Origin: Halorussus marinus
GTDB lineage: Archaea > Halobacteriota > Halobacteria > Halobacteriales > Haladaptataceae
DNA length: 64,000 nucleotides
Assembly: GCF_004765795.1 (NCBI RefSeq)
Contig: NZ_SBIV01000002.1
Coordinates: 434,001 to 498,000, forward strand
Reading direction: 5' to 3'
Positions 46,214 to 49,835 of the stretch are shown piece after piece. Each line of letters opens with the position of its first letter. Within the stretch, counting starts at the first letter, position 1. A program made the position numbers and the translations under genes. The notes beneath the pieces were generated by a model. It saw nothing but the letters and a program-made list of their open reading frames with translations. It was not told the origin of the DNA and ran no database searches.

Positions 46214-46663
46214 TTAACGTTTGGGATGGCTCCCGCAGTCGGGCGGCCACACTCCCCGGAGCCGCCCGTCTCCGGCGGGCGAGACGTCGAATCCGAGCGA
46301 CTCGTAGAAGGGGCGCACGTCGGGATCGAACGCCGCGACGAGCCGCGAGCGGTCCGCGGCCGCCGCCCGAACGAGCGCGGTGCCGACGCCCCGCGCCCGA
46401 CGAGCGCGCCGGACCGCGACCGCGTCGATGCGCGCGCCCGACTCGATCGGAACCGCGACCAGCGCCCCGACCACGGGGCCGTCGGCGTCTCGCGAGTCGG
46501 CCGACGAGTCGCCGGGGTCGGGGCCCGACCCGACCGCGACCAGCACGTCGCCCGCCTCGATCCGCTCGGGGAGATCCGCCCGAACGTCGAGCATCGCGGC
46601 GTCGAGGACCCGACGCACCCCGAGTCCGTCGTCGGGCGTCGCCGCCCGGACCGCGACGCTCAT
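46214..46663 (-). CDS. GNAT-family N-acetyltransferase
   Basis: The 149-residue protein has the acetyl-CoA loop RRARRARGVGTALVRAAAAD and the terminal AFDPDVRPFYESLGFDVSP, standard for GNAT enzymes. The segment around residues 50-65 is a short Asp/Ser-rich insertion. Its ATG overlaps the stop of the SAMP2-peroxiredoxin gene by four bases. The substrate, possibly a protein amine or small molecule, is unknown. Confidence 0.85.
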   Translation of the reverse strand: MSVAVRAATPDDGLGVRRVLDAAMLDVRADLPERIEAGDVLVAVGSGPDPGDSSADSRDADGPVVGALVAVPIESGARIDAVAVRRARRARGVGTALVRAAAADRSRLVAAFDPDVRPFYESLGFDVSPAGDGRLRGVWPPDCGSHPKR

Positions 46664-47514
46664 TCGGCGTCGGCGAGCAGGCGGTCGACCATCGCCAGCA
46701 CGTCCTCGACGGCGGGACGGTCGCTCGGCCCGTCACCCCGGTGGATCGCGTACAGCTCCGGGTCGGCGCGCGTGTCCAGAATCACGACCTGCGGGAGCCG
46801 ACCGAGGAGGTCGTGGAGCCCGCCGAGCCGGCCGAACCGGGTCGGCTGGCCGTACTGCTCGGCCACCCGCTTGTCGGCGTCGGCGACGAGCGCGAACGGG
46901 AGGTGGAGCCGGCGTTGCCACGTCTCGGCGCGGGCTTTCGGCTCGGGGACCACCGCCACCGCCGCGGCCCGACGAGCCCGGAACTCGCCGTAGCGGTCCG
47001 CGACCGCCCGGAGCTGTTCGCGACACGTTCGGCTGTGGTAGTCCCGCTGGAAGAACAGGACGACGGCGTCGTTGTGCGGCGTCGTCGGGCGCCGGGGGAT
47101 CGGCCGGCCGACGCCGTTGGTCGGGTCGGCCGCCAGCGTCGAGAGCGCGAGCGGGTCGGGGCCGACCCCGGCGTTCGGGAGTTCGAAGTCGAGGGCCGAG
47201 ACCCCGAACGCCGAGAGTCCGTCCGGGCCTTCGCGCGCGTCGAGGCCGGTCCGGTTCGGGGCGCCGTCGGGGGCCGAGCCGTCAACCTCGGCGTCGACGG
47301 TCCCGACTCCGTCGGCGCTCCCGCCCTTGATGAGTCGCAGGACTCTGACGTGGTCGGTCTCGACCGGCTGGTCTTCGGGCACCGGGCGGCCGTCGACCAT
47401 CACCGACACCTCGTGGGGGCTCAGGCCCACCGCGTCGAGCAGGTCGGCGTAGGTCGCGTCCTGAACTTCGAGGTCGTGGCTGTCCTCGCCGACGACCTCG
47501 ACGGTGACGTGCAT
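46660..47514 (-). CDS. SAMP2 ubiquitin-like domain fused to a peroxiredoxin domain
   Basis: 284 residues. Residues 1-65 closely resemble the ubiquitin-like modifier SAMP2 of Haloferax: VTVEVVGE, YADLLDAVGLSPHEVSVMVD, GRPVPEDQPVE and VRVLRLIKGG, ending at Gly64-Gly65 where SAMP2 normally stops. Here translation continues through a Gly/Asp/Ala linker (66-100). It then enters a peroxiredoxin-like domain (ALDFELPNAGVGPDPLALST, VVLFFQRDYHSRTCREQLRA, FALVADADKRVAEQYGQ, PQVVILDTR) with a likely peroxidatic Cys164 in the S-x-x-C context. The usual Prx proline before it is absent. The nearby rfcS and alaS genes match the samp2 neighbourhood I recall in Haloferax. It is the first gene of an operon with GNAT and deacetylase genes. 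Confidence 0.8.
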   Translation of the reverse strand: MHVTVEVVGEDSHDLEVQDATYADLLDAVGLSPHEVSVMVDGRPVPEDQPVETDHVRVLRLIKGGSADGVGTVDAEVDGSAPDGAPNRTGLDAREGPDGLSAFGVSALDFELPNAGVGPDPLALSTLAADPTNGVGRPIPRRPTTPHNDAVVLFFQRDYHSRTCREQLRAVADRYGEFRARRAAAVAVVPEPKARAETWQRRLHLPFALVADADKRVAEQYGQPTRFGRLGGLHDLLGRLPQVVILDTRADPELYAIHRGDGPSDRPAVEDVLAMVDRLLADAE

Positions 47515-48842: not shown

Positions 48843-49835
48843 ATGAGCGAGGCCGAGAGCGAGGGCGACGGCGAGCAGAGGCCGGGTCGCCAGGAGATCT
48901 GGATCGAGAAGTACCGACCCCAGACGCTCGACGAGGTGGCGGGCCACGAGGATATCACCGCGCGCCTCCGGAGCTACATCGAGCGCAACGACCTGCCGAA
49001 CCTCCTGTTCTCCGGGCCGGCCGGCGTCGGGAAGACCACGTCGGCGACCGCGATCGCCAAGGAGCTGTACGGCGACGACTGGGAGCAGAACTTCCTCGAA
49101 CTCAACGCCTCCGACCAGCGGGGCATCGACGTGGTCCGAGACCGGATCAAGAACTTCGCGCGGTCGTCGTTCGGCGGCTACGACTACCGCATCATCTTCC
49201 TCGACGAGGCCGACTCCCTCACGTCCGACGCCCAGTCGGCGCTCCGGCGGACGATGGAGCAGTTCTCCTCGAACACCCGATTCATCCTGTCGTGTAACTA
49301 CTCCAGTAAGATCATCGACCCGATCCAGTCGCGGTGTGCGACGTTCCGGTTCGGGCCGCTGGACGAGGCGGCGATCGCCGAGCAGGTCCGGATCGTGGCC
49401 GAGGCCGAGGGGATCGAGACGACCGAGGAGGGCGTCGACGCGCTGGTCTACGCCGCCGACGGCGACATGCGCAAGGCGATCAACGCGTTGCAGGCCGCCG
49501 CCGTGATGGGCGAGACCGTCGACGAGGACGCGGTGTTTTCGATCACCAGCACCGCCCGCCCCGAGGAGATCGAGGAGATGGTCCGGCGAGCGCTCGACGG
49601 CGACTTCGCGAAGGCCCGCTCGATCCTCGACGACCTGCTGTCGAACAAGGGGATGGCGGGCGGGGACATCATCGACCAGCTCCACCGCTCGGTGTGGGAG
49701 TTCGACCTCGACGACGAGGCCGCCGTCCGACTCATGGACCGGGTGGGCGAGGTCGACTACCGCATCACCGAGGGCGCCAACGAGCGCGTCCAGTTGGAGG
49801 CGCTGTTGGCGTCGCTGTCGCTCGAAGACGAGTAG
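48843..49835 (+). CDS. rfcS: Replication factor C small subunit
   Basis: The 330-residue AAA+ protein has [20 protein letters not shown], Walker [21 protein letters not shown], Walker [21 protein letters not shown], the SRC arginine-finger motif in [13 protein letters not shown] and a sensor 2 region around [13 protein letters not shown]. It forms the clamp loader that places PCNA (encoded at 21946) on primer-template DNA. No intein is present, unlike some archaeal rfc genes. The acidic N-terminal tail of 15 residues is typical for haloarchaea. Confidence 0.95.

Follow-up and report, generated by a model that had tools for sequence, protein, structure and literature searches.

In Halorussus marinus, the only gene for the ubiquitin-like modifier SAMP2 encodes this protein fused in frame, through a linker, to a peroxiredoxin (Prx), and the fusion was found in all but one of the Halorussus genomes searched. 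The architecture is real and conserved, and its mechanism is most likely that of a known class, the JAMM-matured precursor of a ubiquitin-like protein (Ubl) and its partner. We consider it probable that the gene encodes a precursor of SAMP2 and Prx that is cleaved by the protease JAMM1. The window analyzed here, 64,000 nucleotides of contig NZ_SBIV01000002.1, contains the gene and its conserved neighbors, whose coordinates are collected in Table 1.

Table 1. Coordinates in the window of the SAMP2-peroxiredoxin gene, its parts and its neighbors
Feature	Coordinates	Strand	Remarks
SAMP2-peroxiredoxin fusion gene	46660..47514	minus	284 aa; kept in 17/18 Halorussus genomes
SAMP2 (ubiquitin-like, beta-grasp) domain, residues 1-65	47320..47514	minus	PF21965, NF041919; pLDDT ~95
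Gly64-Gly65 codons; predicted JAMM1 cleavage after Gly65	47320..47325	minus	invariant in all fused Halorussus proteins
Linker, residues 66-103, predicted disordered, variable	47206..47319	minus	always in frame; pLDDT
Peroxiredoxin (AhpC-TSA) domain, residues 104-284	46663..47205	minus	PF00578 and structural matches
C164, likely peroxidatic cysteine (S161-R-T-C164)	47023..47025	minus	alignment with BcpB TPGC Cys; predicted helix
GNAT N-acetyltransferase gene	46214..46663	minus	overlaps fusion stop by 4 bases (ATGA)
rfcS, conserved neighbor marking samp2 locus	48843..49835	plus	locus comparison

The gene is read from 47514 down to 46660 and comprises 284 codons closed by a TGA stop. The initial annotation had placed this ORF correctly at 46660-47514 but gave no strand, which is minus. 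Its assignment of residues 1-65, up to the Gly-Gly, to SAMP2 was borne out by the Pfam profile PF21965 (E 1.7e-30, 105.7 bits against a cut-off of 27), by the NCBIfam SAMP2 equivalog NF041919 (114.4 bits against a cut-off of 70) and by the PDB sequence of Haloferax volcanii SAMP2 (HVO_0202; PDB 2l32, 4hrs), which aligns with the fusion protein through the Gly-Gly. The two species share this domain and the same type of rfcS-samp2-GNAT locus. The H. marinus protein differs in having 219 residues past the Gly-Gly, which is thus not the C-terminus of the encoded chain, and in having Arg57 at the position of Lys58. Since the ending of the chain at the Gly-Gly is also variable in the family, we file the protein as a SAMP2 precursor rather than as free SAMP2. 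Gly64-Gly65 itself is invariant across the fused Halorussus proteins. All the other Halorussus have Lys at residue 57. Lys58 of H. volcanii SAMP2 is presumably the lysine that forms polySAMP2 chains and, if so, the SAMP2 of H. marinus would be unable to form that chain. In several loci of family f4, as well as in L056 and L059, SAMP2 has extra residues rich in Asp, Ser and Gly, up to about 30 of them, inserted into the beta-grasp domain ahead of TYADLL.

AlphaFold2, run with a 20-sequence alignment, predicted the SAMP2 and peroxiredoxin domains as separate folds, each with a pLDDT of about 95, and gave pLDDT values below 50 for residues 64-89. The Gly-Gly junction is thus predicted to be disordered and so accessible, as a protease requires. 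The initial annotation had recognized a linker of 35 residues; the linker exists, but by our domain boundaries its length is about 38.

The C-terminal domain matches PF00578 (AhpC-TSA) over approximately residues 104-284 with an E value of 1e-13 and 51.7 bits against a cut-off of 26; the Prx domains of relatives score 64-66 bits. When the model of residues 102-284 was compared with known structures, the best matches were peroxiredoxins (human Prx1: Z 19.6, rmsd 2.1, 153 aligned residues), so as modeled this domain has a peroxiredoxin fold. The weaker match to a SelL-related model (39 bits) falls far below its cut-off of 120, although the domain exceeds the AhpC-TSA cut-off, and only the second cysteine is present (S161-x-x-C164). 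There is a single cysteine, C164, located in the first turn of a predicted helix (residues 162-173); its counterpart in the alignment is the TPGC cysteine of Mycobacterium tuberculosis BcpB. By this alignment C164 is likely the peroxidatic cysteine. S161 occupies the Thr position of the BcpB motif, so that S161-R-T-C164 aligns with TPGC, but the Pro position of the pattern PxxxT/SxxC is occupied by Arg157. Most relatives carry CxxC at the Prx active site. Within Halorussus the pair is mostly CxxC, with SxxC in H. marinus (47023-47034) and some others and CxxS in L018, which retains just the first cysteine of the pair, H. marinus retaining just the second. The loss of either cysteine in some Halorussus suggests a shifting chemistry. 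A stand-alone Prx of the same haloarchaeal family (45% identity) is encoded on a contig from a metagenome-assembled genome labeled Thermoplasmata (L048) and reflects either transfer or mis-binning.

Conservation in relatives had been proposed in the initial annotation as a check on the fusion. Each of the 18 Halorussus genomes has one such gene, and in 17 of them it is a single reading frame of SAMP2, linker and Prx. The profile matches and the intact ORF confirm the in-frame fusion, and the agreement among genomes shows that it is neither a chance event nor a local error. Linkers in the 17 species range from 13 to 51 codons; 11 lengths occur, and none of the linkers shifts the frame or contains a stop. 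Ten changes of linker length, each with a one-in-three chance of keeping the frame, would all do so by chance with a probability of about 2 in 100,000, an estimate that ignores shared ancestry. Median pairwise dN/dS was lowest in SAMP2 (0.09), higher in Prx (0.35) and highest in the linker (0.65), a contrast that points to a loose tether between two constrained domains. No ATG, GTG or TTG lies in frame between residues 66 and 125 in H. marinus and three other Halorussus, and translation of Prx from its own start codon was therefore rejected for these species; the H. marinus Prx can hardly be made except within the fusion. Some congeners do have in-frame start codons at the head of Prx, and in these a separate start may be used.

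A stop codon after Gly65, or separate genes in relatives, had been named as observations that would speak against the fusion. Neither was seen, save for a one-base difference in a single congener (G016; L024 / L174). There SAMP2 ends ...KGGAV-stop and Prx lies in another frame, with a GTG start that overlaps the stop. At the Gly-Gly codons the DNA of this genome reads AAGGGGGGAGCGG and that of L021 reads AAGGGGGGAAGCGG; the one-base difference falls in a homopolymer stretch, GGGGGG(A)AGCGG, beside these codons, and translation in the shifted frame continues as GSG...LGVTETDFELPNAG. Either the assembly is in error at this base or the gene has truly been split. The branch position of this genome in the Halorussus clade would fit either case, as well as an ancestral two-gene state.

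The samp2 locus was also read in 90 other haloarchaeal genomes, hand-picked as one to a few per genus. In a comparison of samp2 loci, an rfcS gene upstream and a GNAT gene downstream recurred with and without the fusion, and the fusion is thus the positional orthologue of samp2, as had been proposed from the nearby rfcS and alaS genes. Both of these are present, and rfcS adjoins samp2 in non-fused relatives as well. In most of the loci compared, across families, the GNAT gene follows samp2 or samp2-prx, and from the ATGA overlap at 46660-46663 it is probably co-translated with the fusion in H. marinus. GNAT genes beside arCOG00535 Ubl genes in Halobacteria were listed by Makarova and Koonin in 2010 (PMC2948915 Table 1).

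In 16 of the 90 genomes a prx gene of the same family lies directly downstream of samp2 on the same strand, beginning approximately 40-170 bases past the samp2 stop; further samp2-prx gene pairs were found in family f8. Three of the 90 genomes, from two other genera of family f5, encode separate SAMP2-Prx fusions, and within these genera every genome examined has one (g12, 3/3 genomes; g59, 1/1). In a tree of 62 Prx domains, those of Halorussus group in a single clade with support 100/99, and its sisters are the prx genes adjoining samp2 in f8. Fused domains occur at three places in this tree, and the non-Halorussus fusions fall outside the Halorussus clade. An AU test of all fused Prx domains as one clade gave p 0.058, so that a single origin of all fusions, with later splits, is disfavored although not formally rejected. 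The fusion was probably made more than once.

All 90 sampled SAMP2 proteins keep the Gly-Gly. Of the 87 that are not fused, 66 end directly at it and 21 carry tails of 1-11 residues. Tails of 5-24 residues past the Gly-Gly were seen in L152, L160, L161, L162, L132, L133, L135, L118, L059 and L051; examples from several genera are ATDGDATDGGA, SSGATLGPPS and SKPPIDRNR. SAMP2 precursors that need trimming are thus not confined to Halorussus.

The initial annotation had also suggested looking for a second, free SAMP2 and for JAMM proteases in the same genome. Our genome search found no second SAMP2 in H. marinus, leaving the fused copy as the only one. A family search likewise found exactly one SAMP2 in each of the 18 Halorussus genomes; of 164 sampled haloarchaeal genomes, 163 had exactly one. 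Besides SAMP2, H. marinus encodes a pair of SAMP1 equivalogs, one SAMP1-like protein with the ending PIHGG and one further Ubl that ends in FIFCC. All of these end directly at GG or CC, and SAMP2 alone is extended. The gene for the Cys-Cys protein lies about 1.4 kb from a SAMP1 gene (L002, L004; G000:C6:169694-171353). The genome encodes the E1 enzyme UbaA (503.7 bits against a cut-off of 450) and the tRNA thiolase NcsA (624.7 bits against 500). With one SAMP2 per genome and both of these equivalogs present, it is the fused copy that must supply the pathway. JAMM proteases are present too, including an over-cut-off HvJAMM1 orthologue, the desampylase JAMM1 (NF041370, 158.4 bits against 130), whose JAMM motif HSHPRGPAEPSATD has the pattern HSH-x7-S-x2-D; a second JAMM protein has the motif HSHPNGVLKPSDAD. 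Each of the 32 genomes tested has a protein above the NF041370 cut-off, whether it carries the fusion or not, and all fusion carriers are among them. Because relatives whose SAMP2 is free possess JAMM1 equally, the protease is no special adaptation to the fusion.

In H. volcanii, SAMP2 is the Ubl assigned to NcsA-dependent tRNA thiolation, and its C-terminal glycine must be free for adenylation by UbaA before thiolation or conjugation can follow (PMC4048286). Fused SAMP2 therefore probably must be cut free before use. HvJAMM1 is stated to hydrolyze linear and isopeptide linkages of SAMP1-3 (PMC4048286). A linear SAMP1-MoaE protein was cut by HvJAMM1 exactly after the Gly-Gly in vitro, and its functional parts were freed in vivo in a jamm1-dependent manner (PMC4443979); the cleavage that we predict after Gly65 is modeled on this reaction. 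Similarly, SAMP precursors of C. subterraneum are cut by CsJAMM (PMC6043591), and activation of the natural MoaD-MoaE fusion of Deinococcus requires DRJAMM (PMC8832034).

We therefore propose that the only SAMP2, a Urm1-type Ubl, would be made as a precursor joined by an in-frame flexible linker to the peroxiredoxin. A desampylase of the HvJAMM1 type would cut after Gly65, yielding equal amounts of free SAMP2-Gly-Gly and Prx, in a manner resembling the processing of ubiquitin-ribosomal-protein and Ubl-MoaE fusions. The freed SAMP2 would then enter UbaA activation, NcsA-dependent tRNA thiolation and conjugation. If the equal amounts are of benefit, the joint output of modifier and peroxidase would serve the role of SAMP2 in oxidative stress. 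Proteolytic maturation best explains why UbaA, NcsA and an invariant Gly-Gly are kept although the only SAMP2 is capped. It would count against a precursor that JAMM1 would be needed here for all SAMP2 output and is dispensable in laboratory H. volcanii, in which jamm1 deletion strains grow (PMC4443979). Cutting by a second protease could also occur.

Alternatively, the fusion might stay intact as a permanently encoded 'sampylated peroxiredoxin', with SAMP2 serving as a docking or regulatory module (through proteasome, Cdc48 or UbaA contacts) and another Ubl carrying sulfur to tRNA. In favor of such a protein are the long, flexible linkers of most species, the predicted separate folding of the two domains, the known conjugation of Urm1 to peroxiredoxins and the presence in the genome of other Ubls with a free Gly-Gly (the two SAMP1 equivalogs and the SAMP1-like protein). 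We nevertheless regard it as unlikely, because the Gly-Gly is invariant although it is useful only with a free carboxyl end, because there is no other SAMP2 to take on the NcsA-dependent tRNA thiolation that SAMP2 serves in H. volcanii (PMC4048286), and because a desampylase is encoded. A compromise in which both forms are used, with partial cleavage set by redox state or by the supply of JAMM1 and the fusion acting as a redox-linked reservoir that yields SAMP2 on demand, seems to us distinctly improbable. It would fit the rise of SAMP2 conjugation with oxidants in H. volcanii (PMC5587910), the need for JAMM1 to act on each molecule and the absence of separate Prx start codons in several species, but the linker sequence contains no conserved element able to act as a switch. 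That the fusion results from an error in sequencing or assembly, or is no more than a read-through ORF, the genes being truly separate as in Halohasta and its kin, is rejected as very improbable, for although GC-rich genomes contain many long spurious ORFs and one congener reads as two genes, the agreeing Halorussus assemblies are independent, their varied linkers all keep the frame, the exceptional genome differs by one base with its shifted frame continuing, and two other genera have fusions as well. Although sequence alone does not decide between release and a fixed redox module, we favor release, given that the Gly-Gly is invariant, that SAMP2 has no second copy, that the UbaA/NcsA pathway is intact and that cleavage of SAMP1-MoaE has been published.

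The proposed maturation has its closest parallel in linear Ubl-MoaE and MoaD-MoaE fusions, which occur naturally in bacteria and Crenarchaeota and, as SAMP1-MoaE, were engineered in H. volcanii (PMC4443979, PMC8832034). In these, as in H. marinus, one chain holds a sulfur-carrier Ubl followed, past a Gly-Gly junction, by a functional partner, and the H. marinus genome also encodes a JAMM protease. JAMM release of both parts is a feature of those systems and would by analogy extend to this one. In H. marinus the partner is a peroxiredoxin rather than molybdopterin synthase, and the Ubl is SAMP2, which acts in tRNA thiolation and conjugation. In the ubiquitin-ribosomal fusions (UBA52, RPS27A) and the Ub/SAMP precursors of C. 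subterraneum, a C-terminal extension is likewise removed to expose the Gly-Gly (PMC6043591). Eukaryotes, however, have other free or polyubiquitin genes, whereas here SAMP2 has no gene other than the fused copy.

Proteins of the Urm1 type are considered a surviving connection between sulfur carriers and ubiquitin; among their conjugation targets in eukaryotes, the best known is a peroxiredoxin. Yeast Ahp1 is of a different, Prx5-like type of peroxiredoxin. The Urm1-Ahp1 pair of yeast and the urmylated peroxiredoxins of Saccharolobus likewise join a Urm1/SAMP-type modifier to a peroxiredoxin, but by a post-translational isopeptide bond, where the Halorussus fusion has an encoded peptide bond (PMC7016264, PMC12625751, PMC12645042). 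Urmylation of Ahp1 requires its peroxidatic cysteine (PMC7016264), Sulfolobus Urm1 placed in yeast conjugates to Ahp1 (PMC12645042), and two Saccharolobus peroxiredoxins are among the Urm1 targets (PMC12625751). Mutation of samp2 or ubaA makes H. volcanii hypersensitive to oxidants, and SAMP2 conjugates increase under hypochlorite (PMC5587910). In Thermococcales, Ubl genes were found beside genes for OsmC-type peroxiredoxins by Makarova and Koonin, who did not describe a SAMP2-Prx fusion (PMC2948915). A 2024 survey of fusion proteins in archaea names neither ubiquitin nor peroxiredoxin in its main text, and no earlier report of a SAMP2-Prx fusion was found in the open-licence literature. The architecture is thus apparently unreported.

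The repeated fusion and pairing of samp2 and prx is a further, independent line tying Urm1/SAMP to peroxiredoxins. The Prx may be a target, a helper or merely a co-regulated stress enzyme of SAMP2. A more specific suggestion, which we offer tentatively and think rather doubtful, is that it is a dedicated partner that senses peroxide via C164 and stimulates or guides the thio-activation and conjugation of SAMP2, the fusion being an encoded form of an old Urm1-peroxiredoxin pathway. This suggestion draws on the role of MsrA in Haloferax and on the Urm1-Ahp1 chemistry of yeast.

The genus-wide fusion of samp2 and prx, with further fusions in other genera and neighboring gene pairs elsewhere, provides independent evidence from genomes for cooperation between the two proteins, and it ties SAMP2, an ancient relative of ubiquitin, to peroxide defense. 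If the precursor is processed as we propose, the whole genus Halorussus would have become dependent on this processing for its only SAMP2. The genus would then offer a clean test of whether the main task of JAMM1 can be maturation and not merely SAMP removal. The fusion also bears on how oxidant defense, tRNA thiolation and sampylation are coupled.
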